From Rhodothermus sp. (GTDB lineage Bacteria; Bacteroidota; Rhodothermia; Rhodothermales; Rhodothermaceae), in the NCBI GenBank assembly GCA_026989375.1, contig JALSJJ010000256.1, positions 1 to 36,495 of the forward strand: a stretch of 36,495 nt of DNA, written 5' to 3'. A model generated the notes under the pieces. That model was not told the origin of the DNA and searched no databases. It worked only from the letters and a program-made list of their open reading frames with translations. A program made the translations under genes and the position numbers. Positions 2,591 to 16,069 of this stretch are shown here, in pieces (the first letter of the stretch is position 1; each line of letters begins with the position of its first letter).

Positions 2591-3397
2591 ATGGCCCTTT
2601 ATCCGCAACCGCAACGTGCCACAACGGCCAGAAGCCACGGCCGCGGGTACCCGTGGCTTTTTTTGTGGCTGCTGATCGGAATCGGAGGGCGCCTCTCCCT
2701 GGCCCAATCGGTCGATCCCGTTGCGCTGGTCCGTGAAGCCGAGGAGGCGATCAAAGGAAAAACCAGCCATGCGGTGCTGGAAATGAAGGTCGTGACGCCC
2801 GACTATCGCCGCACGCGCAAGCTGGAAGCCTGGTGGAAGGGGAACGAAAAAGCCCTGATCGTCACGCTTGAACCGCCCCGTGAAGCGGGCAATCGCACGC
2901 TCAAGCGCGGCAGCGAGCTGTGGATGTACCTGCAGGAAACCGAAACGACCATCAAGATCCCGCCCTCCATGATGCTACAGTCGTGGATGGGCTCCGACTT
3001 CACGTACGACGATCTGGTACGCGAATCGAATCTGGTGCGCGATTATCAGATCCGACTGGTCGGAACCGATACGCTTGACGGCGTGCCCTGCTACGTGCTG
3101 GAGCTGGTGCCCAGACCCGAAGCACCCGTCGTCTGGGGCAAGCTGCGCTACTGGATTCGCCAGACCGACCGCCTGCCTGCCCGCATCGCATACTACAGCG
3201 AGCAGGGCCAACAGGTACGTACGCTCTCTTTTTATGACGTGCGCCGCATGGGCGGTCGCCACCTGCCTACCCGATGGGTGATGCGTAACGATCGCGAACC
3301 CGGCCGTTTTACGGAAATTCGCCTGCTGGAGGCCGAGTTCGACCTTCCCATCCCTGAAGAAATCTTCAGTTTTCGCGCCCTGGAGCAGGGACCATGA
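2591..3397 (+). CDS. LolA-like outer membrane lipoprotein-sorting protein
   Basis: The protein is 268 aa from ATG 2591. A basic N-region (R9, R14, R18), a hydrophobic core (about 22-33) and a likely cleavage after A38 (LSLA/QS) make an export signal. The mature part is a beta-rich LolA/LolB-type half-barrel: SHAVLEMKV, then LEAWWKGNEKALIVTLEPPR, then SELWMYLQETETTIKIPPSM and RLVGTDTLDGVPCYVLEL, the pattern of the COG2834 family. It probably carries a lipid or lipoprotein across the periplasm for the ABC permeases that follow. Its ATGA stop overlaps the next start, so it heads a coupled operon. A GTG at 2570 is an alternative start. Oddly, a strong terminator-like hairpin covers its signal-peptide codons. 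Confidence 0.8.
   Translation: MALYPQPQRATTARSHGRGYPWLFLWLLIGIGGRLSLAQSVDPVALVREAEEAIKGKTSHAVLEMKVVTPDYRRTRKLEAWWKGNEKALIVTLEPPREAGNRTLKRGSELWMYLQETETTIKIPPSMMLQSWMGSDFTYDDLVRESNLVRDYQIRLVGTDTLDGVPCYVLELVPRPEAPVVWGKLRYWIRQTDRLPARIAYYSEQGQQVRTLSFYDVRRMGGRHLPTRWVMRNDREPGRFTEIRLLEAEFDLPIPEEIFSFRALEQGP
2633..2664 (+). terminator. terminator-like hairpin inside the 5' end of the LolA-like gene
   Basis: The 8-bp arms AGCCACGG (2633-2640) and CCGTGGCT (2651-2658) are perfectly complementary and run into seven T residues (2658-2664). By form it is an intrinsic terminator for the release-factor-like gene, yet it lies in codons 15-25 of the best LolA-like reading frame. It may act as an attenuator between the two genes, or the true start may be a TTG at 2663, which would leave a signal peptide with no basic N-region. 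Confidence 0.65.
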
Positions 3398-4614
3398 TCG
3401 GACGGCTGGCCTGGCGCAATCTGGGACGTAACCGCCGACGCACCCTGCTGACGGTGGCGGCCGTCTTTTTTGCCACGTTCCTGATGGTGCTGATGCGCGG
3501 ACTCCAACTGGGAACCTACGACTTCTTCATTCGCCAGAGCACGCGGCTTTCGACCGGCTATCTGCAGGTGCAGCATGCGGACTACCTGGACCGACAATCG
3601 CTCCGCCAGAGCTTCTGGCTTACCGACTCCCTTTTTGCGCGTATTCGTACCACCCGGGGCGTTACCGGGGCCGCGCCCCGCCTGGAAACAGGCGGACTGA
3701 TCAGCAACCGGACCACCTCCTACGGGGTGCGCCTGCTGGGCATCGATCCCTCCTACGAACCGGCGGTGACCGACTTTCCCTCCCGGATCGTCGCCGGCCG
3801 CATGCCGGAGACCAACGATCCGCTGGAAATCGTCGCGGGCTACCGCCTCCTCGAAAACCTGGACGCTTCGGTGGGCGATACGCTGGTGCTACTGGCCGAA
3901 GCTTACCCGGGCTTTCTGACCAGCCGCTTTGCCGTGGTGGTAGGCGCGCTGCGCATCGGGCACGAAGTGCACGATCGATCCCTCGTGCTGTTGCCGCTTG
4001 CTGCCCTGCAGGACCTGCTCGAAACCGGCAACCGCGTGACCGCCGTCGCCGTGGCCGTCCAGCGCAACGCCGACGTCCCGCTTGTACGCGACCAACTGCA
4101 GGCCTGGCTGAACCGCCCTCTCGTCGTGCGCACCTGGGAAGACCTGATGCCCGAGTTGCGCCAGGCTATCGAGCTGGACAACATCAGTGGCCTGCTCTTT
4201 CTGTTCATGCTGCTGATCTTGGTAGCCTTCGGCGTGTTGAATACCGTCCTGATGAGCGTGCTGGAGCGCTCGCGCGAATTTGGCATGTTGCTGGCGCTGG
4301 GCATGCCCAACGCGCGGCTGCTGCGCGTGGTGCTCGTCGAAGCCGTCCTGATGGTACTGATCGGCCTCGTGCTGGGCAGTGCAGCCGGCTTTGCTGTCAA
4401 TGCTTACCTGATTCGCCATCCGATCACGCTGGGCGGCGAGCTGGCGCAGCTCTACGAATACTATGGCTTTCTGCCGATATTGACCTCGTCGGTAGCGCCT
4501 GAAATCTTTCTACGCACCGTGCTGCGCGTGCTGGCCATTGCCGGGATCGCCATCGCGTACCCGCTCTGGCATGTGCTCCGACTGGAACCGCTGAAAGGCA
4601 TTCGCTACACCTGA
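3394..4614 (+). CDS. ABC transporter permease, FtsX/LolC-LolE type
   Basis: The protein is 406 aa in the inner membrane. One N-terminal transmembrane helix (about 13-36, after a basic RNLGRNRRR run) is followed by a large periplasmic domain of about 230 residues (the MacB-periplasmic-core position). Three C-terminal helices follow (about 268-290, 315-340, 370-395). The LERSREFGMLLALGM motif after the second helix is the cytoplasmic coupling loop conserved in FtsX/LolC/MacB permeases. It overlaps the upstream gene by ATGA and the downstream one by TGATG, so the two permeases probably form a heterodimer served by the ATPase at 5849-6541. The substrate is inferred to be a lipoprotein or lipid because of the LolA-like neighbour. 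Confidence 0.88.
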   Translation: MIGRLAWRNLGRNRRRTLLTVAAVFFATFLMVLMRGLQLGTYDFFIRQSTRLSTGYLQVQHADYLDRQSLRQSFWLTDSLFARIRTTRGVTGAAPRLETGGLISNRTTSYGVRLLGIDPSYEPAVTDFPSRIVAGRMPETNDPLEIVAGYRLLENLDASVGDTLVLLAEAYPGFLTSRFAVVVGALRIGHEVHDRSLVLLPLAALQDLLETGNRVTAVAVAVQRNADVPLVRDQLQAWLNRPLVVRTWEDLMPELRQAIELDNISGLLFLFMLLILVAFGVLNTVLMSVLERSREFGMLLALGMPNARLLRVVLVEAVLMVLIGLVLGSAAGFAVNAYLIRHPITLGGELAQLYEYYGFLPILTSSVAPEIFLRTVLRVLAIAGIAIAYPLWHVLRLEPLKGIRYT

Positions 4615-5852
4615 TGCGTTTGCGCGACACCATCGGACTGACCCGGGTGGCCTGGCGCAACCTCTGGCGCAACCGGCGCCGCACGCTGATCGTGCTCAGC
4701 AGTGTGGTGGTAGGCGTGTTCGTCCTGGTGCTCTTCGACACGCTCAACCTGGGCATGGTGGCGCAGATGCTCGACAATCATCTTCGCCTGCACGTCGGCC
4801 ACGTCCAGATCCATCGCGAGGGCTACCATGCCAACCCGGCCGTCGAGCAATTTTTTCAAGATGCCGCGACGGTGCAACAGCAGGTGGCCACGCACCCGGA
4901 AGTGCAGGCGGTTGCGCCGCGCGTGCTGGCCCACGGACTGCTTTCGAGTGCCTACAACAATGGAGGCGTTCAGCTTGTCGGGATCGTACCCGAAGCCGAA
5001 TCGCTGGTCACTTTCATTGCGAAGCAGCTTGTTGCCGGCCGTTATCTGCATGGCGAAGGCCGGGAAATCCTGATCGGCGAACGCCTGGCCCGCAAGCTCG
5101 AAGTGCGCCTCGGAGACCGCGTGGTGGCGATGGCTGCCCGCCCGGATGGACAGATCGGCTCCGAAGTGTTTCGCGTGGCGGGCCTGTTCCGCACGGTCAG
5201 CGCTGACTTCGATCGCACCATGGCCTTCATCCCGATCGACCAGGCCCGTGCCCTGCTGGGATTACCTTCCGATGCCGCCCACGAGCTTGTACTGTTGCTC
5301 AACGACGCGCGCCAGGCCGAGACGTTAAAGGCCCATTTGCAGAGCGCCCTGCCCGACACGCTCGAAGTGCTGACCTATCGCGACATCGTACCGTTGCTCG
5401 TCATGCAGCGCGACCTGTACGCCCAAATGATGTACCTGATTTACCTGATCATCGGAGTAGCCCTCATCTTCGGCATCATCAATGCCATGCTCATGGCCGT
5501 CCTGGAGCGCCTGCCAGAATTCGGCGTGTTGCGAGCCATCGGCATGAGCGAAGGACGGCTATTTCTGCTCGTATCCCTCGAATCGTTACTGATCGGTCTG
5601 CTGGGGACAGCCCTGGGCTGGGGGCTCAGCCTGCCAGTCTATGCCTACCTGGCCCACCATGGGCTGAACCTGGCGGCTTTTTCCGAAGCGCTGACGGCCT
5701 TTGGCATTGGCGCCGTCATCTATCCCCGCCTGACGTTCCGAGTGGTCTGGAACGCCTGGCTCATCATTCCCCTGGTAGCCTGGCTGGGAGCCCTCTATCC
5801 CGCCTGGCGCGCCCTCCATGTTGAACCCGTTGAAGCCATGCGGGCTGTATGA
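4614..5852 (+). CDS. ABC transporter permease, FtsX/LolC-LolE type (second subunit)
   Basis: The protein is 412 aa with the same layout as its upstream neighbour: a basic RNLWRNRRR start, a helix at about 22-45, a periplasmic domain to about 270, and three C-terminal helices. The coupling loop reads LERLPEFGVLRAIGM. The two permeases are clearly paralogous but diverged, as in LolC/LolE. Start and stop overlap both neighbours (TGATG at 4612-4616, ATGA at 5849-5852), supporting co-translation in fixed ratio. It probably extracts an envelope lipid or lipoprotein and hands it to the LolA-like protein. A MacB-type efflux role is less likely because each permease is separate from the ATPase. Confidence 0.88.
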   Translation: MRLRDTIGLTRVAWRNLWRNRRRTLIVLSSVVVGVFVLVLFDTLNLGMVAQMLDNHLRLHVGHVQIHREGYHANPAVEQFFQDAATVQQQVATHPEVQAVAPRVLAHGLLSSAYNNGGVQLVGIVPEAESLVTFIAKQLVAGRYLHGEGREILIGERLARKLEVRLGDRVVAMAARPDGQIGSEVFRVAGLFRTVSADFDRTMAFIPIDQARALLGLPSDAAHELVLLLNDARQAETLKAHLQSALPDTLEVLTYRDIVPLLVMQRDLYAQMMYLIYLIIGVALIFGIINAMLMAVLERLPEFGVLRAIGMSEGRLFLLVSLESLLIGLLGTALGWGLSLPVYAYLAHHGLNLAAFSEALTAFGIGAVIYPRLTFRVVWNAWLIIPLVAWLGALYPAWRALHVEPVEAMRAV

Positions 5853-6541
5853 GTGCGATGGCCATTGTCCAGGCCGAACAGGTCCACAAGATCTACGACG
5901 AAGGTGCCGTGCCCGTCGAAGCCCTGCGCGGCGTCTCGCTCACCATCGCACCGGGCGAGTTTACGGTAATCGCCGGCCCTTCAGGTTCCGGCAAAACGAC
6001 CCTGCTCAATCTGCTGGGTGCGCTCGACGTGCCCACCACCGGACGGGTGTTTTTTGAAGGACAGGACCTGAGCAAACTCTCCCGGCGCGAGCGGGCCCGG
6101 CTCCGGCTCTACAAGATCGGGTTCGTATTTCAGGCCTACAACCTGATCCCGGTATTGACCGCGCTGGAAAATGTCGAATTTGTGCTGCTGCTGCAGGGCG
6201 TGCCCGAACGTGAACGCCGCCGCCGCGCCCTTGAAGTGCTGGAGCAACTCGGCATCGGGGAACTGGCCCATAAGCGCCCGCACGAAATGAGCGGCGGCCA
6301 GCAACAACGCGTAGCCGTAGCCCGCGCCGTAGTCAGCCGCCCCCGTCTGATCCTGGCTGACGAACCCACAGCGAACCTCGACTCGGCCACCGGCGCGCGC
6401 CTGCTCGATCTGATGGAACAGCTCAACCGCGAACAGGGCGTAACCTTTGTGTTCTCATCCCATGACCCTCAGGTGATTGAGCGCGGCCGCCGCCTGCTCT
6501 GGCTTCACGACGGACGCATCGAACGCGAAGAACGACGGTGA
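5849..6541 (+). CDS. ABC transporter ATP-binding protein, LolD/MacB type
   Basis: The protein is 230 aa, the usual length of LolD/FtsE-class ATPases. Walker A is GPSGSGKTT at about 43-51, the Q-loop is in VFQAYNLIPVLTALENV, the signature SGGQQQR is at about 148, Walker B LILADEP is at about 166, and the H-loop is in SSHDPQV. The LolD/MacB hallmarks EALRGVSL and ANLDS are present. It energises the two FtsX-type permeases encoded just before it. It overlaps the second permease by ATGA and the next gene by GTGA. Nothing in the sequence looks degenerate. Confidence 0.92.
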   Translation: MSAMAIVQAEQVHKIYDEGAVPVEALRGVSLTIAPGEFTVIAGPSGSGKTTLLNLLGALDVPTTGRVFFEGQDLSKLSRRERARLRLYKIGFVFQAYNLIPVLTALENVEFVLLLQGVPERERRRRALEVLEQLGIGELAHKRPHEMSGGQQQRVAVARAVVSRPRLILADEPTANLDSATGARLLDLMEQLNREQGVTFVFSSHDPQVIERGRRLLWLHDGRIEREERR

Positions 6542-7762: not shown

Positions 7763-8308
7763 CTATGGCGAAAGGACCGTATCCGGCTCGGCCAGCGGCA
7801 TCCCGGCCTGCACCCACCGACGGATCCGGTCGATCCCGACCAGCCGGAGCAGCAGTCGGGCTCCCTCTTCCGTTTCCTGATAGAACACCAACTGTGGCGT
7901 GGCCGCCGCACCACCATGAAGCGCCCGCAGCCCCCGAAAGGCCAGGCTGGCCCACCGCCCGCCAGCCGCCACTTCGTGAAAGGGACCCATCCGCTCCAGG
8001 TGCTTCAGGCCGTCCGCAGGCGAATGACTGATGGCGATCCCGACAAAGTGCACGTCCTGCTGATGCGTTTCAGCATACGTCCTCACGTGAGCCTGCATCG
8101 TCCGCAACAGCGCCGGAAGGTCCGGGTGGTTGGACGGCCCACAGGTAGGCGAACCGATGTAAACGACCACCAGACGGGTATCGAAGGCGGGAAGCGCCGC
8201 AGCAGACAATTCCGAAGTGGCAAACAGCTTCTGGTACCACAGATACCCACCCCATGCAAATAAAACAAGGCTGATAAAGTACAGGCTAATAATATAATTC
8301 TTTCTCAT
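7763..8308 (-). CDS. membrane-anchored thioredoxin-like protein with CGPS (monothiol) site
   Basis: The protein is 181 aa. One N-terminal transmembrane segment (about 5-25) lies after MRKN, so the rest should face the periplasm. The fold is thioredoxin-like: strand LVVVYIGS, then the active-site position T-C56-G-P-S59, a long helix, strand FVGIAIS, and a late A-T-P-Q before strand LVFYQE that fits the cis-Pro loop. The resolving cysteine of a classic CGPC is Ser here, so it cannot do the usual dithiol exchange alone; CxxS proteins tend to trap or isomerise substrates. It is the last of three - strand genes, 8 nt after the beta-propeller gene. Its N-terminal codons are AT-rich like that gene, while its body is GC-rich. 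Confidence 0.65.
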   Translation of the reverse strand: MRKNYIISLYFISLVLFAWGGYLWYQKLFATSELSAAALPAFDTRLVVVYIGSPTCGPSNHPDLPALLRTMQAHVRTYAETHQQDVHFVGIAISHSPADGLKHLERMGPFHEVAAGGRWASLAFRGLRALHGGAAATPQLVFYQETEEGARLLLRLVGIDRIRRWVQAGMPLAEPDTVLSP

Positions 8309-8316
8309 TGACAGAC

Positions 8317-9459
8317 TTATATTTTTTCAAAATAATAAATATTAGGATATTCGTGATTTATGTTTATTACTATCTTAGATTTATCATCAATCCATAATAT
8401 TGGATAATCACTATTTGAAACAAAATATCTACCCTTAATATCAAACATAAAAACATAAATATTGAAATTTCCTTTCTTTCTTAATACATATTGAAACATA
8501 AAAGCGCCTCCATTTATATTCAAAATTTTAGGTATAAGTATCATTTTATTTGATTCTTCATAGAAATAAATAGCCCCATCTTTTTCTGTAAATCCACTTA
8601 TATTCACACCTTCTATTCGTGCTTCCCATATTAGATGGCCTGTATCTATATGATAAACCTGAACAATTGGAATATACCTGAACACAACGACAATAATTTT
8701 TTGATCCAAATCACAGATCATGTAATTTTTAGTTATATAATTCCATACTAATCGATTATCTGATTTATACTTGATTATCCCTAATGTATCCATTATTTGT
8801 CCACTTTTGTTTATTTTATATATGAAAGGAGTATTTGCTCTGGCTCTGTGTCCAGAGACAATAAGAATAGAATCACCTACACACAATCCACCGGATGGCA
8901 CAATTGGTAATGAAGAAATCGTTCTATGATATACATATCGTGTTCCCTCTGGCACAAACACATCGATTTTCATTTGACGATCCGCCACAAACAGTGTATC
9001 CTCTTCATCCAAAGCAATCCATTCTGGATATATCCATTCTCCTGGACCTTCACCACGAGCACCTACACTGAATAAGTATGCTCCTGCCGAATTAAATACG
9101 CGCACCTCTGCATTCTTTCTATCCAGGACAAAAATGCGCCCTCGACTATCTCGCGACACATCCTTGATCTCACCAAACATCTCCTCCTTTCTTCCTACCA
9201 GCGCTCCGATCTGCCAACGCGGCTGCATAGCCTGCAGCCGAGAGATCACGAGCTCTAACGAATCCTCAGATCTCATTTGATCGATATAAAAAATATGATC
9301 AAACGCTTCACGAGGAGGTAATAATGCTGGATCTGGGTGATAACGCTCTTTAACGTCCCTATTTTGACACCCCACTAATAATGCACAAATTAAAGATATG
9401 AATATACATTCAATTTTTAAAAAGTTAATAATTCGAATATTTATTATAAAATTTTTCAT
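8317..9459 (-). CDS. six-bladed beta-propeller lipoprotein (NHL-like)
   Basis: The protein is 380 aa. It has a long hydrophobic leader and a lipobox L-V-G-C31, so it is predicted to be a lipoprotein. From about residue 95 it shows NHL/six-bladed-propeller signatures: DVSRDSRGRIFVLDRKNAEVRVF, a GARGEGPGEW loop, then WIALDEEDTLFVADRQMKIDVF. Later blades are more diverged. Such lipoproteins are common in Bacteroidetes relatives next to small secreted peptides and thioredoxins, but their job is not established. Base use is odd: the last ~200 codons and the leader are very AT-rich while roughly 8950-9320 approaches the GC of the genome, as if the gene were a mosaic. No Shine-Dalgarno is seen. It is 26 nt after the peptide gene. 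Confidence 0.72.
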   Translation of the reverse strand: MKNFIINIRIINFLKIECIFISLICALLVGCQNRDVKERYHPDPALLPPREAFDHIFYIDQMRSEDSLELVISRLQAMQPRWQIGALVGRKEEMFGEIKDVSRDSRGRIFVLDRKNAEVRVFNSAGAYLFSVGARGEGPGEWIYPEWIALDEEDTLFVADRQMKIDVFVPEGTRYVYHRTISSLPIVPSGGLCVGDSILIVSGHRARANTPFIYKINKSGQIMDTLGIIKYKSDNRLVWNYITKNYMICDLDQKIIVVVFRYIPIVQVYHIDTGHLIWEARIEGVNISGFTEKDGAIYFYEESNKMILIPKILNINGGAFMFQYVLRKKGNFNIYVFMFDIKGRYFVSNSDYPILWIDDKSKIVININHEYPNIYYFEKI

Positions 9460-9485
9460 ACTATAAAAATCAATTTAACTTTACT

Positions 9486-9710
9486 TTATTCAGGTTCAAA
9501 GCAACTTTTTGTAACACAGTCATTATAGTTTATCATGTCACAATAAGTTTTCTCTCCTGTATTAGGAATACATTCTTCTATTCTACGTCCCCAAAAATCC
9601 CATCTTACATTACATTCATCTTCCTCACAGGGAGGAAGGGCGTTCGTTGACGCTTCAGGCCACAACACAGCCCCTCCCAGAAACGCCAGCGAGCAGACCA
9701 GCAGGATCAA
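9486..9710 (-). CDS. small secreted six-cysteine peptide (NVEALA-like in style)
   Basis: The predicted product is 74 aa from a TTG at 9710. A hydrophobic leader (about 2-17) is followed by STNALPP and a mature part of about 50 residues with six cysteines (C28, C33, C47, C57, C65, C70). It is acidic and carries no helix-forming repeats. Secreted, Cys-rich, with an N-A-L motif at the processing region, it resembles in style the NVEALA peptides of Bacteroidetes; I cannot claim homology. The start is uncertain: an AGGAGG (9734-9729) is 5 nt before a CTG (9723) that is one base out of frame and hits TAA at once, while the TTG is 18 nt from it. Thus the start may be weak, use an unusual context, or be damaged. 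It leads the three-gene unit with the propeller and thioredoxin-like genes. Confidence 0.5.
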   Translation of the reverse strand: MILLVCSLAFLGGAVLWPEASTNALPPCEEDECNVRWDFWGRRIEECIPNTGEKTYCDMINYNDCVTKSCFEPE

Positions 9711-9814
9711 CGCTTTACTTCAGGGCGCCCTCCTGTTTTGATTTGGTTGACCATGGATTGAATCTTCTTGAAATTTCTCTCTCGTCAAGTATTCATTTTT
9801 GAAATTTTAGTTAA

Positions 9815-10010: not shown

Positions 10011-10032
10011 CTAATAAAAATTAAAATCACAT

Positions 10033-10177
10033 GCTCCCCCTCTCAGGGGAGCTGTCCGAAGGACTGAGGGGGTGGTCTGTTGAAAACAGCGTTGCGGTGA
10101 AGACAAAACGGTTAGCCTAATCAGGCGGAGGTGGCTGGAGCCCCTCCCCCTGTCCCCCTCCCCAATGGGGAGGGGGG
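10033..10177. repeat. palindromic repeat unit 1
   Basis: The left end is a hairpin (GCTCCCC/GGGGAGC) followed by a short stem GTCC-GAA-GGAC (10054-10064) and TGAGGGGG. The right end (10138-10177) is a C-rich run closing in CCCCTCCCC/GGGGAGGGG. The interior is not conserved with the other units. Confidence 0.75.
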
Positions 10178-10304
10178 AAGTCATAGAAGTAAAGCCTGAC
10201 ATTTAGTAGCTTTGCTGCTAAGTGTGCCTTTCCTGCAGCAAAAAGCCTGGGCTATCACTCTGCTGTTGCCTGTAATTGGTACTGCCGTAGAAATCAGAAA
10301 ATCC

Positions 10305-10441
10305 GCTCCCCCTGCCAGGGGGAGCTGTCGCGTAAGCGACTGAGGGGGTTATTCTCGGACCACAGCGCCAACCTCTGGGACAATAGCGTTGGTGGCGGGA
10401 CAGAGCCCCTCCCCCTGTCCCCCTCCCCAGAGGGGAGGGGG
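10305..10441. repeat. palindromic repeat unit 2 (best preserved)
   Basis: The left end is a 21-nt palindrome at 10305-10325 with 10-bp arms (GCTCCCCCTG/CAGGGGGAGC), then stem GTCGC-GTAA-GCGAC (10327-10340) and TGAGGGGG. The right end (10403-10441) is nearly identical to that of unit 1 and closes in CCCCTCCCC/GGGGAGGGG. Only the ends are shared; the roughly 60-nt interior differs. Confidence 0.8.
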
Positions 10442-10509
10442 ATACCTTGTAACAGTCTCCGCAGAGAGCCAGCGCCTACGCCACAAACAACCCTCCTCAC
10501 GGAATCAAA

Positions 10510-13069: not shown

Positions 13070-16069
13070 TCAACCGCAGCCGCTCGAGCTACCGCAGTTC
13101 GGACACACGTAGCAGGCGCCCGAGCGCACCGTGATCGAGCCACAGTTCGAGCAGGCTGGCGCATCTTCCTGGTTCTGAAAAGCGGCTGCTGCCATAGCCG
13201 TCGTCTCCGGTGCAGCCGCTGCGCTCTTCTGCTGCGTCTGCAGGAAAGTTTCAATGGTCTGTCCCACCAGCGGCGTAACCTCGCCGGTCGGCTGCGTCTC
13301 GAAGCTCAACTCCAGTTGTCGCTCATCACGGGCCGGCCCACTCCGCTTCATCTCGGCCTCCACGCCATCCTGTGGATTTTCCGATTGCTCCTCCTGTGGC
13401 CGTCCCAGGAATTTGAGGGACAGGTAGCGGAAGATGTAGTCCATGATGGACTTGGCAATCGGAATCTGCGGGTTGTTCGTAAAGCCGGCCGGCTCGAAGC
13501 GCATGTGGCTGAACTTGTTGCACAGGTCTTCCAGCGGCACGCCATACTGGAGTGCGATCGAGATGGCCGTCGCAAACGCATCCATCAGCCCCGAGATCGT
13601 CGATCCCTGCTTGGCCATGGTGATGAAGATCTCGCCCGGCATGCCGGTGTCCGGGTAGAGGCCGATGTGCAGATAGCCCTCGTGGCCGGCCACGGAAAAC
13701 TTGTGCGTGATCGAAGGCCGCTCGTCGGGCAGCCGCTTGCGCACCGGTTTGTAGACGACCTTTTCCACAATCTTCTCGACCACCTGCGGCTCACCGGCAG
13801 CCACCCCGTCGCCTGCTGTCTCGGCCTGCCGCTCCTCCTTGCGCGTCGAAAGCGGCTGGCTCCGCTTGGAGTTCTCCCGGTAGATAGCCAGTGCTTTCAG
13901 TCCCAGCTTCCAGCCCTGGATGTAGGCGTCCATGATCTCCTCGACCGTCACATGCTCGGGCATGTTGACCGTCTTGGAGATGGCCCCACTGATGAAGGGC
14001 TGGCAGGCGGCCATCATCTTGATGTGGCCCATGTAGTGAATAAAGCGCTGCCCCTTGTAGGGCTTAAAGGCGCAGTCGAAAACCGGCAGATGTACCTCCT
14101 TCAGGTGCGGAGCCCCTTCAATCGTGTCATTTTCTTCAATGTAGGCGAGGATCTCTTTGATCTGCTCTTCGCTGTAGCCCAGGCGGCGCAGGGCAATGGG
14201 CACCGTGTTGTTGACGATCTTGAACATGCCATCGCCTTTGCCCGCCAGCAGCTTGTACTTCACCAGCGCGATGTCCGGCTCGATGCCCGTGGTATCGCAA
14301 TCCATCATAAAGCTGATGGTCCCCGTGGGCGCGAGCACCGTTGCCTGCGCGTTACGGTAGCCGTAGCGCTCGCCCAGCGCGACCATACGCGCCATGCTCT
14401 CACGGGCGGCCTCCTTCAGATCCGCCGGACAGCTTGGATGAATATCCTCGACGGCCGCCTGGTGCAGGCGCATCACTTCCAGCATGGGCTCCCGGTTTTT
14501 CTCGAAGCCCGGGAACGGCCCAATACGCTCAATGGCCGCGATCTCCGCACTCCGGGCATAGGCTTCCGCATGCATGATGGCCGTAATGGCGCCGGCTACC
14601 GCCCGCCCTTCATCGCTGTCGTACGGCAGGCCCATCGCCATCAGCATCGCGCCCAGGTTAGCAAAGCCCAGCCCGAGTGGTCGGTAGTCGTGGCTGTTTT
14701 GCGCAATCTTTTCCGAGGGATAGCCGGCATTATCGACCAGGATCTCCATGGCCGTGATGAAAATCCTCACGGCCGCCCGGAAGCGCTCGACGTCGAACGA
14801 TCCATCCTCCCGCTGAAACTTGCGCAGGTTCAGCGAGGCCAGGTTGCACGCCGAGTTGTCGAGAAACATATATTCGGAACACGGGTTACTCGAGTTGATC
14901 GGGCCGCTGCGCTTGCAGGTGTGCCACTTCTGGATCGTATCCTCGTACTGCAACCCGGGGTCGCCGCAGATCCACGTGCCTTCGGCCACCTTGTAGAGCA
15001 GCTCATAGGCATCCACTTCGTCGATCACCTCCCCGGTCGTTACGGCCCGAAGCGGGAATTTCTTCCGGGCCAGCACAGCCTCCATGAACTCGTCCGTAAC
15101 GCGCACGGACTGGTTCACATTCTGGAAAGCGACCGAGCTGTACGCCTCGCCATTGAACGAGCCGTCGTAGCCCTGCTCGATCAGTGCCCAGGCCTTCTTT
15201 TCCTCTTTGGCCTTGGCCGTCACAAACTCCATGATGTCGGGATGCCAGACCTTCAGCGTCTGCATGATGGCCGCCCGGCGCGTCTTGCCCCCGGACTTGA
15301 TCGTGGCGCCGGTGGCATCCTGCACGCGCATGAACGAGACTGGCCCTGAGGGCCGTCCACCACCGGAAAGTTTCTCCTTCGTAGAGCGCAGCTTAGACCA
15401 GTCGGCCCCCACACCCGAGCCAAACTTGAACAGGCGGGCGCTTTCGGCCATGAGCTGCCAAATATCGTCAATCGAATCCTCTACCGAGATGATGAAGCAG
15501 GCTGAAGCCTGCGGCCGCTCGTATGGATCAACAGGCACCACCTGCTGCTTTTCAAAATCCCAGCCAAAGATCGTCTTGCCCCCCGTGTCGCGCACCCCGT
15601 ACTGATGGTACAGACCCACATTGAACCAGACCGGCGAATTGAAGGCCCCGTACTGGTGCAGGCAGAGCCAGGTCAACTCGTCGTAGAAGCGTTCGGCGTC
15701 TTCCGGCGTCGCGAAATATCCCTGCGCCTTGCCCCAGTCGGCAATCGTGCGGGTCACCCGATGAATGAGCTGCTTCAGGCTGTACTCCCGTTTGCCCTCC
15801 CGGGGATCGCCGTTGCCGGCGGCCAGGTCGCCGTAAAAGTATTTGGAAGCGACCACGTTCGTGGCCAGTTGGCTCCACGTGGAGGGAAATTCCACGTCCT
15901 TCTGTTCAAAAACCGCTTCGCCTTTGCTGTTATAGATGGCGGCCGTCCGGCGCTCCCAACGGACCGTATCAAAGGGATGCACGCCTTCCTGAGAGAACAC
16001 GCGCGTAATGCGCAGACCATGACGGAGCGCCTGTGCGTCTGTCGGTGACTTGCGAGGAGACTTTGCCAT
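13070..16069 (-). CDS. nrdJ: adenosylcobalamin-dependent ribonucleoside-diphosphate reductase (class II)
   Basis: The protein is 999 aa. It converts ribonucleotides to deoxyribonucleotides using a B12-derived radical, so it works with or without oxygen. The first redox cysteine lies in SACFIISVEDS (C191), and the NPCSE block holds the radical-site residues N395, C397 and E399. DNSACNLASLNL follows. The region of about 750-880 matches the C-terminal TSCPD domain of the B12 family (GYLHIGLYPDTGMPGEIFI; KQGSTISGLMDAFATAISIALQYG). The tail ends in a cysteine-rich C-x2-C ... C-x2-C-x2-C motif, likely the swinging re-reduction or zinc module. No N-terminal ATP cone is seen. ATG 16069 gives MAKSPRKSP. 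The leader upstream has inverted repeats but no cobalamin riboswitch that I can identify. Confidence 0.95.
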   Translation of the reverse strand: MAKSPRKSPTDAQALRHGLRITRVFSQEGVHPFDTVRWERRTAAIYNSKGEAVFEQKDVEFPSTWSQLATNVVASKYFYGDLAAGNGDPREGKREYSLKQLIHRVTRTIADWGKAQGYFATPEDAERFYDELTWLCLHQYGAFNSPVWFNVGLYHQYGVRDTGGKTIFGWDFEKQQVVPVDPYERPQASACFIISVEDSIDDIWQLMAESARLFKFGSGVGADWSKLRSTKEKLSGGGRPSGPVSFMRVQDATGATIKSGGKTRRAAIMQTLKVWHPDIMEFVTAKAKEEKKAWALIEQGYDGSFNGEAYSSVAFQNVNQSVRVTDEFMEAVLARKKFPLRAVTTGEVIDEVDAYELLYKVAEGTWICGDPGLQYEDTIQKWHTCKRSGPINSSNPCSEYMFLDNSACNLASLNLRKFQREDGSFDVERFRAAVRIFITAMEILVDNAGYPSEKIAQNSHDYRPLGLGFANLGAMLMAMGLPYDSDEGRAVAGAITAIMHAEAYARSAEIAAIERIGPFPGFEKNREPMLEVMRLHQAAVEDIHPSCPADLKEAARESMARMVALGERYGYRNAQATVLAPTGTISFMMDCDTTGIEPDIALVKYKLLAGKGDGMFKIVNNTVPIALRRLGYSEEQIKEILAYIEENDTIEGAPHLKEVHLPVFDCAFKPYKGQRFIHYMGHIKMMAACQPFISGAISKTVNMPEHVTVEEIMDAYIQGWKLGLKALAIYRENSKRSQPLSTRKEERQAETAGDGVAAGEPQVVEKIVEKVVYKPVRKRLPDERPSITHKFSVAGHEGYLHIGLYPDTGMPGEIFITMAKQGSTISGLMDAFATAISIALQYGVPLEDLCNKFSHMRFEPAGFTNNPQIPIAKSIMDYIFRYLSLKFLGRPQEEQSENPQDGVEAEMKRSGPARDERQLELSFETQPTGEVTPLVGQTIETFLQTQQKSAAAAPETTAMAAAAFQNQEDAPACSNCGSITVRSGACYVCPNCGSSSGCG

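Follow-up and report, generated by a model that had tools for sequence, protein, structure and literature searches.

The nearest known arrangement to the gene set described here comes from Bacteroidota, in which genes for NVEALA peptides (PF14055) adjoin genes for propeller lipoproteins (PF17170, TolB_like PF15869 or DUF4221). These neighbours are annotated in Bacteroidota, and no explanation for them was found in the literature searched; a search that covered few subscription journals returned no paper describing either the NVEALA-propeller arrangement or its counterpart in Rhodothermia. We confirmed the peptide-propeller layout of NVEALA loci in one genome (G375), and recognised no monothiol thioredoxin at the NVEALA loci of that genome. 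The Rhodothermia loci share with the NVEALA pairs a gene for a small exported cysteine-containing peptide that immediately precedes the gene of a propeller lipoprotein, in several pairs per genome, but differ from them in that the peptides do not match PF14055, hold to a fixed frame of six cysteines and are joined by a monothiol thioredoxin-like protein. Bacteriocin/immunity pairs appear analogous in that the peptide always occurs with its partner, the partner is kept without the peptide and the two diverge as a pair, but the triad contains no known bacteriocin or immunity family and no exporter. BamB and other propeller lipoproteins likewise present a propeller on a lipid anchor, whereas the triad propellers are variable accessory genes and not core envelope genes.

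The window is a stretch of 36,495 nucleotides from Rhodothermus (genome G000, contig C256); among the genomes compared, G005 (contigs WFPM01000233.1 and WFPM01000169.1) is a Rhodothermus sp. MAG. An earlier note on this DNA had described three minus-strand frames in a row with spacers of 26 and 8 nt, and both spacers were confirmed: the order of transcription is peptide, 26 nt gap, propeller lipoprotein, 8 nt gap, thioredoxin-like protein (Table 1). The six mature cysteines reported for the peptide are all present, with a further cysteine inside the signal. The six-bladed propeller lipoprotein was borne out by a match to PF17170 ("6-bladed beta-propeller") of 51.6 bits against a curated cut-off of 22.9 (E 1e-13), and by a lipoprotein signal with a lipobox cysteine (LICALLVGC) read by eye from the sequence. 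This match aside, no known toxin, immunity or defence domain was found in the triad using Pfam, NCBIfam and PADLOC, and anti-phage defence was rejected as its role in view of the PADLOC result. No dedicated exporter for the peptide was recognised; the ABC/FtsX genes at 3394-6541 were rejected as a candidate because they are intact in genomes where the triad is absent. We also noted, at 10032-10178 and 10289-10442 of the window, a dispersed repeat of about 145 bp that has some 80 full or partial matches in the genome, often in tandem.

Table 1. Features of the triad in the window and signal peptidase genes at related loci.
Feature	Position	Strand	Remarks
Six-cysteine exported peptide	9486..9710	-	74 aa from TTG, frame open back to 9719
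Six-bladed beta-propeller lipoprotein (PF17170)	8317..9459	-	380 aa, ATG, lipobox LVG/C
Membrane-anchored monothiol (CGPS) thioredoxin-fold protein	7763..8308	-	181 aa, ATG, cis-Pro TPQ
AGGAGG (9734-9729) and place of lost start	9717..9734	-	Alignment with relatives
Conserved upstream and signal-sequence block	9647..9814	-	80% DNA identity with a second species at the syntenic locus
S26-type signal peptidase at or directly behind thioredoxin gene	L198:4174-4665		Pfam match
S26-type signal peptidase at or directly behind thioredoxin gene	L252:3965-4669		Pfam match
S26-type signal peptidase at or directly behind thioredoxin gene	L253:3875-4768		Pfam match

Following a signal-like N-terminus, the window peptide reads CEEDEC-x13-C-x9-C-x7-C-x4-C. 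Twenty related Rhodothermus peptides follow the frame C-x4-C-x(4-14)-C-x(8-9)-C-x(6-8)-C-x4-C, with CExDxC first and the last cysteine missing in a single case, and each of the twenty is followed closely by a propeller. Apart from the cysteines, the CE and the D, the mature peptide varies strongly, and a comparison of seven pairs of relatives gave dN/dS values of 0.08-0.37. Since purifying selection is accompanied by a recurrent gene order, we judge from these sequences that the peptides are real genes and that the family is coding despite the damaged start of the window copy described below. The mature peptide was modelled as four strands with a pLDDT of about 80-90, and no solved fold in the PDB resembled the model below E 5. 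PF14055 matched neither the window peptide nor the other peptide types, nor anything within G000; the Rhodothermia peptide was therefore not filed as NVEALA, although the arrangement is alike.

In Rhodothermus the thioredoxin accompanies only the six-cysteine CExDxC peptide type, and a thioredoxin or its remnant (in L086 a fragment only) follows the six-cysteine operons wherever the contig continues. Some of these operons contain two peptides and two propellers with a single thioredoxin, as in L093, where one thioredoxin stands behind two peptide-propeller units. Other kinds of small exported cysteine-containing peptide precede Rhodothermus propellers with no thioredoxin (L067, L069, L070, L079, L087, L097, L099, L103 and L104), and these have no Pfam or NCBIfam match.

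Alignment of the window with relatives revealed that its peptide gene is damaged at the start, a feature not remarked in the earlier note. The canonical start, an ATG in all four aligned relatives, has been lost in the window because it is replaced by CTG (9723-9721) and an extra T at about 9717 breaks its frame. The remaining TTG start sits 18 nt downstream of AGGAGG, and a peptide begun there would have a signal without its basic residues. Upstream, a TTGAC box at about 9788-9784 is common to all five loci and the Shine-Dalgarno region to the window and three of the four relatives. By its sequence, the window copy may be silent or weakly made, or the start lesion may be an assembly error. 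Separately, a conserved leader some 125 nt long, with CTTGACA, a TG run and a GC-rich hairpin, was observed at G000:C95:2045-2183 and at 21 further sites across five Rhodothermus genomes. It precedes several of the peptide or propeller genes and could be a control element that they share.

The earlier note had called the third protein monothiol and thioredoxin-like, correctly on both counts, as CGPS holds its sole active-site cysteine and an AlphaFold2 model (mean pLDDT 79) consists of a long N-terminal helix followed by a thioredoxin fold. Searched against the PDB, the model gave 39 matches at E values of 0.001 or lower, of which DsbE, ResA and further proteins of TlpA type were the best (E 2e-5). 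In common with the TlpA/ResA/DsbE thioredoxins it has the predicted fold, the N-terminal anchor and the cis-Pro loop, but the peptide-linked protein has CxxS or CxxA, and thus one thiol, in place of the CxxC of those oxidoreductases, no Pfam or NCBIfam match, and TM scores of about 0.45-0.56; its sequence profile gave spurious matches only against PDB sequences. Across 49 thioredoxin sequences the only invariant residues are the first cysteine (Cys56), two glycines and the cis-proline (Pro138). Outside the genus, 27 of 40 relatives carry CxxS or CxxA, and 22 of these 27 have a peptide beside them compared with 4 of the 13 that carry CxxC (p 0.0036, uncorrected for relatedness). A tree-corrected test pointed in the same direction and was not significant, because it offered too few independent pairs (four well supported), and we treat the association suggested by these counts as a lead. 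Together with the restriction of the Rhodothermus thioredoxin to the six-cysteine type and the joint loss in one genome, it makes it plausible that the thioredoxin would act on the disulfides of the peptide. In addition to the three signal peptidase genes in Table 1, an S26-type signal peptidase recognised by motif only lies near an NVEALA cluster (L244:16835-17725).

To survey the triad more widely, 196 Rhodothermia genomes were searched separately with peptide and thioredoxin profiles. Matches to the thioredoxin profile came from 44 genomes (22 of the 71 genera), those to the peptide profile from 17 genomes (9 genera), and the two separate searches converged on the same operons. As in the window, a propeller lipoprotein gene lies directly downstream in 36 of the 38 peptide matches, and the exceptions are two of the three weakest. 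Outside Rhodothermus, 42 of 55 full-length thioredoxin genes stand directly behind a recognised propeller, and an exported peptide (45-120 aa, begun by ATG and containing four cysteines or more) lies upstream of 24 of these 42 pairs, compared with 1 of 172 control genes, which itself precedes a thioredoxin. The corresponding Fisher p of 2e-19 is only a guide, because related genomes are not independent. Among 395 genomes from the wider phylum the thioredoxin was found outside the class once, as a CGPC protein beside which no propeller or peptide was recognised. It also occurs in Gemmatimonadota-type MAGs, one of which (L252) carries peptide, propeller, thioredoxin and S26 signal peptidase consecutively.

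The triad is thus a real, recurring gene set. A search for the three families as neighbours, as the earlier note had proposed, recovered the triad order not only in Rhodothermus but also in many other Rhodothermia and one Gemmatimonadota MAG, and this recurrence in both groups strongly supports the link among the three genes that the note had drawn from order and spacing. The note had also held that propeller or thioredoxin homologues never accompanied by a cysteine-rich peptide would speak against it. Many propellers indeed have no visible peptide, and to that extent the objection stands in part; the converse was not seen, every confident peptide having a propeller.

Comparison of the window with the syntenic site of a second Rhodothermus species (G004), which has matching flanks, revealed very uneven divergence. 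Most neighbouring proteins are 80-97% identical and the thioredoxin 79%, and the promoter and signal DNA (80%) and the signal peptide (79%) are similarly conserved, compared with 35% for the mature peptide and about 40% for the propeller, both within 35-42%. In the R. marinus-like genomes G002 and G003 the flanks are the same and the site that they enclose is empty. At another site in G004 (L077, contig C7), both peptides are deleted, the thioredoxin is frameshifted and two propellers are intact, both of them under purifying selection (dN/dS 0.12-0.17). On these comparisons peptide and propeller are seen to vary together and the propeller to outlast the peptide, the converse being unseen; such asymmetric loss is the pattern that an immunity or receptor protein would leave and does not prove that the propeller is one. 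Propeller numbers also differ between genomes, with about 19 matches each in G000 and G006 and 0-2 in G001-G003; the window propeller has a GC content of 34% against about 65% for its flanks, and a search of the genome contigs with it as query gave no match. The earlier note had offered receptor, transporter or maturation scaffold as roles for the propeller; because the peptide-propeller pair varies and orphan propellers are retained, a putative partner that confers immunity or serves as receptor seems to us more likely than a general transporter. The same comparison revealed an intein-like, in-frame insertion of 354 codons in the ribonucleotide reductase of G004 (L075:13560-14675, starting CVTGDTLV and ending VHN before C), at a site opposite 14879-14881 of the window. 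The insertion is absent from the window genome, and one of equal size is present in the ribonucleotide reductase of G006 (L114).

The reading that we favour, with somewhat less than even confidence, is that the triad makes a secreted disulfide-rich peptide whose bonds would be sorted by the monothiol thioredoxin and whose partner would be the propeller, acting between cells, with antagonism placed ahead of signalling. The peptide would cross the inner membrane by its Sec signal and then be cleaved, a step brought to mind by the signal peptidase gene that follows the thioredoxin in three relatives. The membrane-anchored thioredoxin would reshuffle the three disulfides of the peptide with its single cysteine, as an isomerase and not an oxidase. 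At the outer membrane the propeller lipoprotein would specifically bind its own peptide, as an immunity protein or, less likely, a receptor, and the peptide would have its effect on other cells, its likeliest role being narrow-range antagonism or kin recognition. This reading builds on operon conservation, the six-cysteine framework, purifying selection, the monothiol motif, joint variation and asymmetric loss, all of which are observed; from the sequences we infer the export route, the isomerase role, the binding and the target of the peptide. The cysteine-containing peptides that stand beside other Rhodothermus propellers without a thioredoxin, and the damaged start in the window, count against it, as do the failure to recognise a dedicated exporter or a toxin domain, the peptide model's want of a counterpart among solved folds, and the tree-corrected result for the monothiol motif.

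Receptor-ligand signalling would also explain why peptide and propeller vary together, as would simple replacement through horizontal transfer. If the peptide were a pheromone matured by the thioredoxin, the propeller its surface receptor and the orphan propellers listeners, then the same gene order, pairing and variation would result; the several peptide-propeller types per genome and the leader conserved upstream of several pairs, which suggests common control, would also be accommodated. We nevertheless consider such a signalling pair unlikely, if a serious contender, since among the immediate downstream neighbours examined the operons showed no recognisable sensor kinase, sigma factor or anti-sigma factor and the recurrent unit ends at the thioredoxin in most loci. 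That the peptide might instead be a carrier, binding metal, haem or another ligand for uptake of the loaded peptide by the propeller while the thioredoxin keeps its thiol state, is suggested by the six cysteines and acidic CExDxC, which could bind metal, and by propellers being often ligand-binding. Scavenging of this kind is rather improbable, as neither the strong variation of the mature peptide nor the replacement of pairs between close species would be expected for a shared nutrient, and no TonB-type receptor was recognised adjoining the triads.

Propeller lipoproteins such as BamB are assembly scaffolds and the triad thioredoxin is membrane anchored, so the peptide might never be released, being a small subunit or substrate that is put together at the outer membrane by the thioredoxin and the propeller. 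This too is improbable: a core part of the envelope should be replaced less often, whereas the triad is absent from close relatives and freely lost, and propellers persist without the peptide. The loss of the ATG in the window would suit a further explanation, in which the three genes adjoin by accident and the peptide frame is no true gene, but it is refuted for the family by the recurrence of the order, by purifying selection and by the comparison with control genes, and we give it almost no weight.

Relative to the annotated NVEALA-propeller neighbours, the present analysis adds that the pairing recurs in other lineages with a six-cysteine frame, a monothiol thioredoxin, paired divergence and one-sided loss. 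More tentative than our reading of the triad is a generalisation that we consider rather doubtful: Rhodothermia, Gemmatimonadota and, through the NVEALA pairs, Bacteroidota would possess a class of systems for antagonism or kin recognition, in which secreted disulfide-rich peptides each have a private propeller lipoprotein as immunity or receptor protein and, in one branch, are folded by a dedicated one-cysteine thioredoxin. A vague neighbourhood has become a testable claim, of binding between each peptide and its own propeller and of disulfide sorting by the thioredoxin, and the test is practical since Rhodothermus is culturable; the peptides, being of thermophile origin, may be stable. If true, this class of antagonism or kin-recognition systems would be both widespread and previously undescribed.
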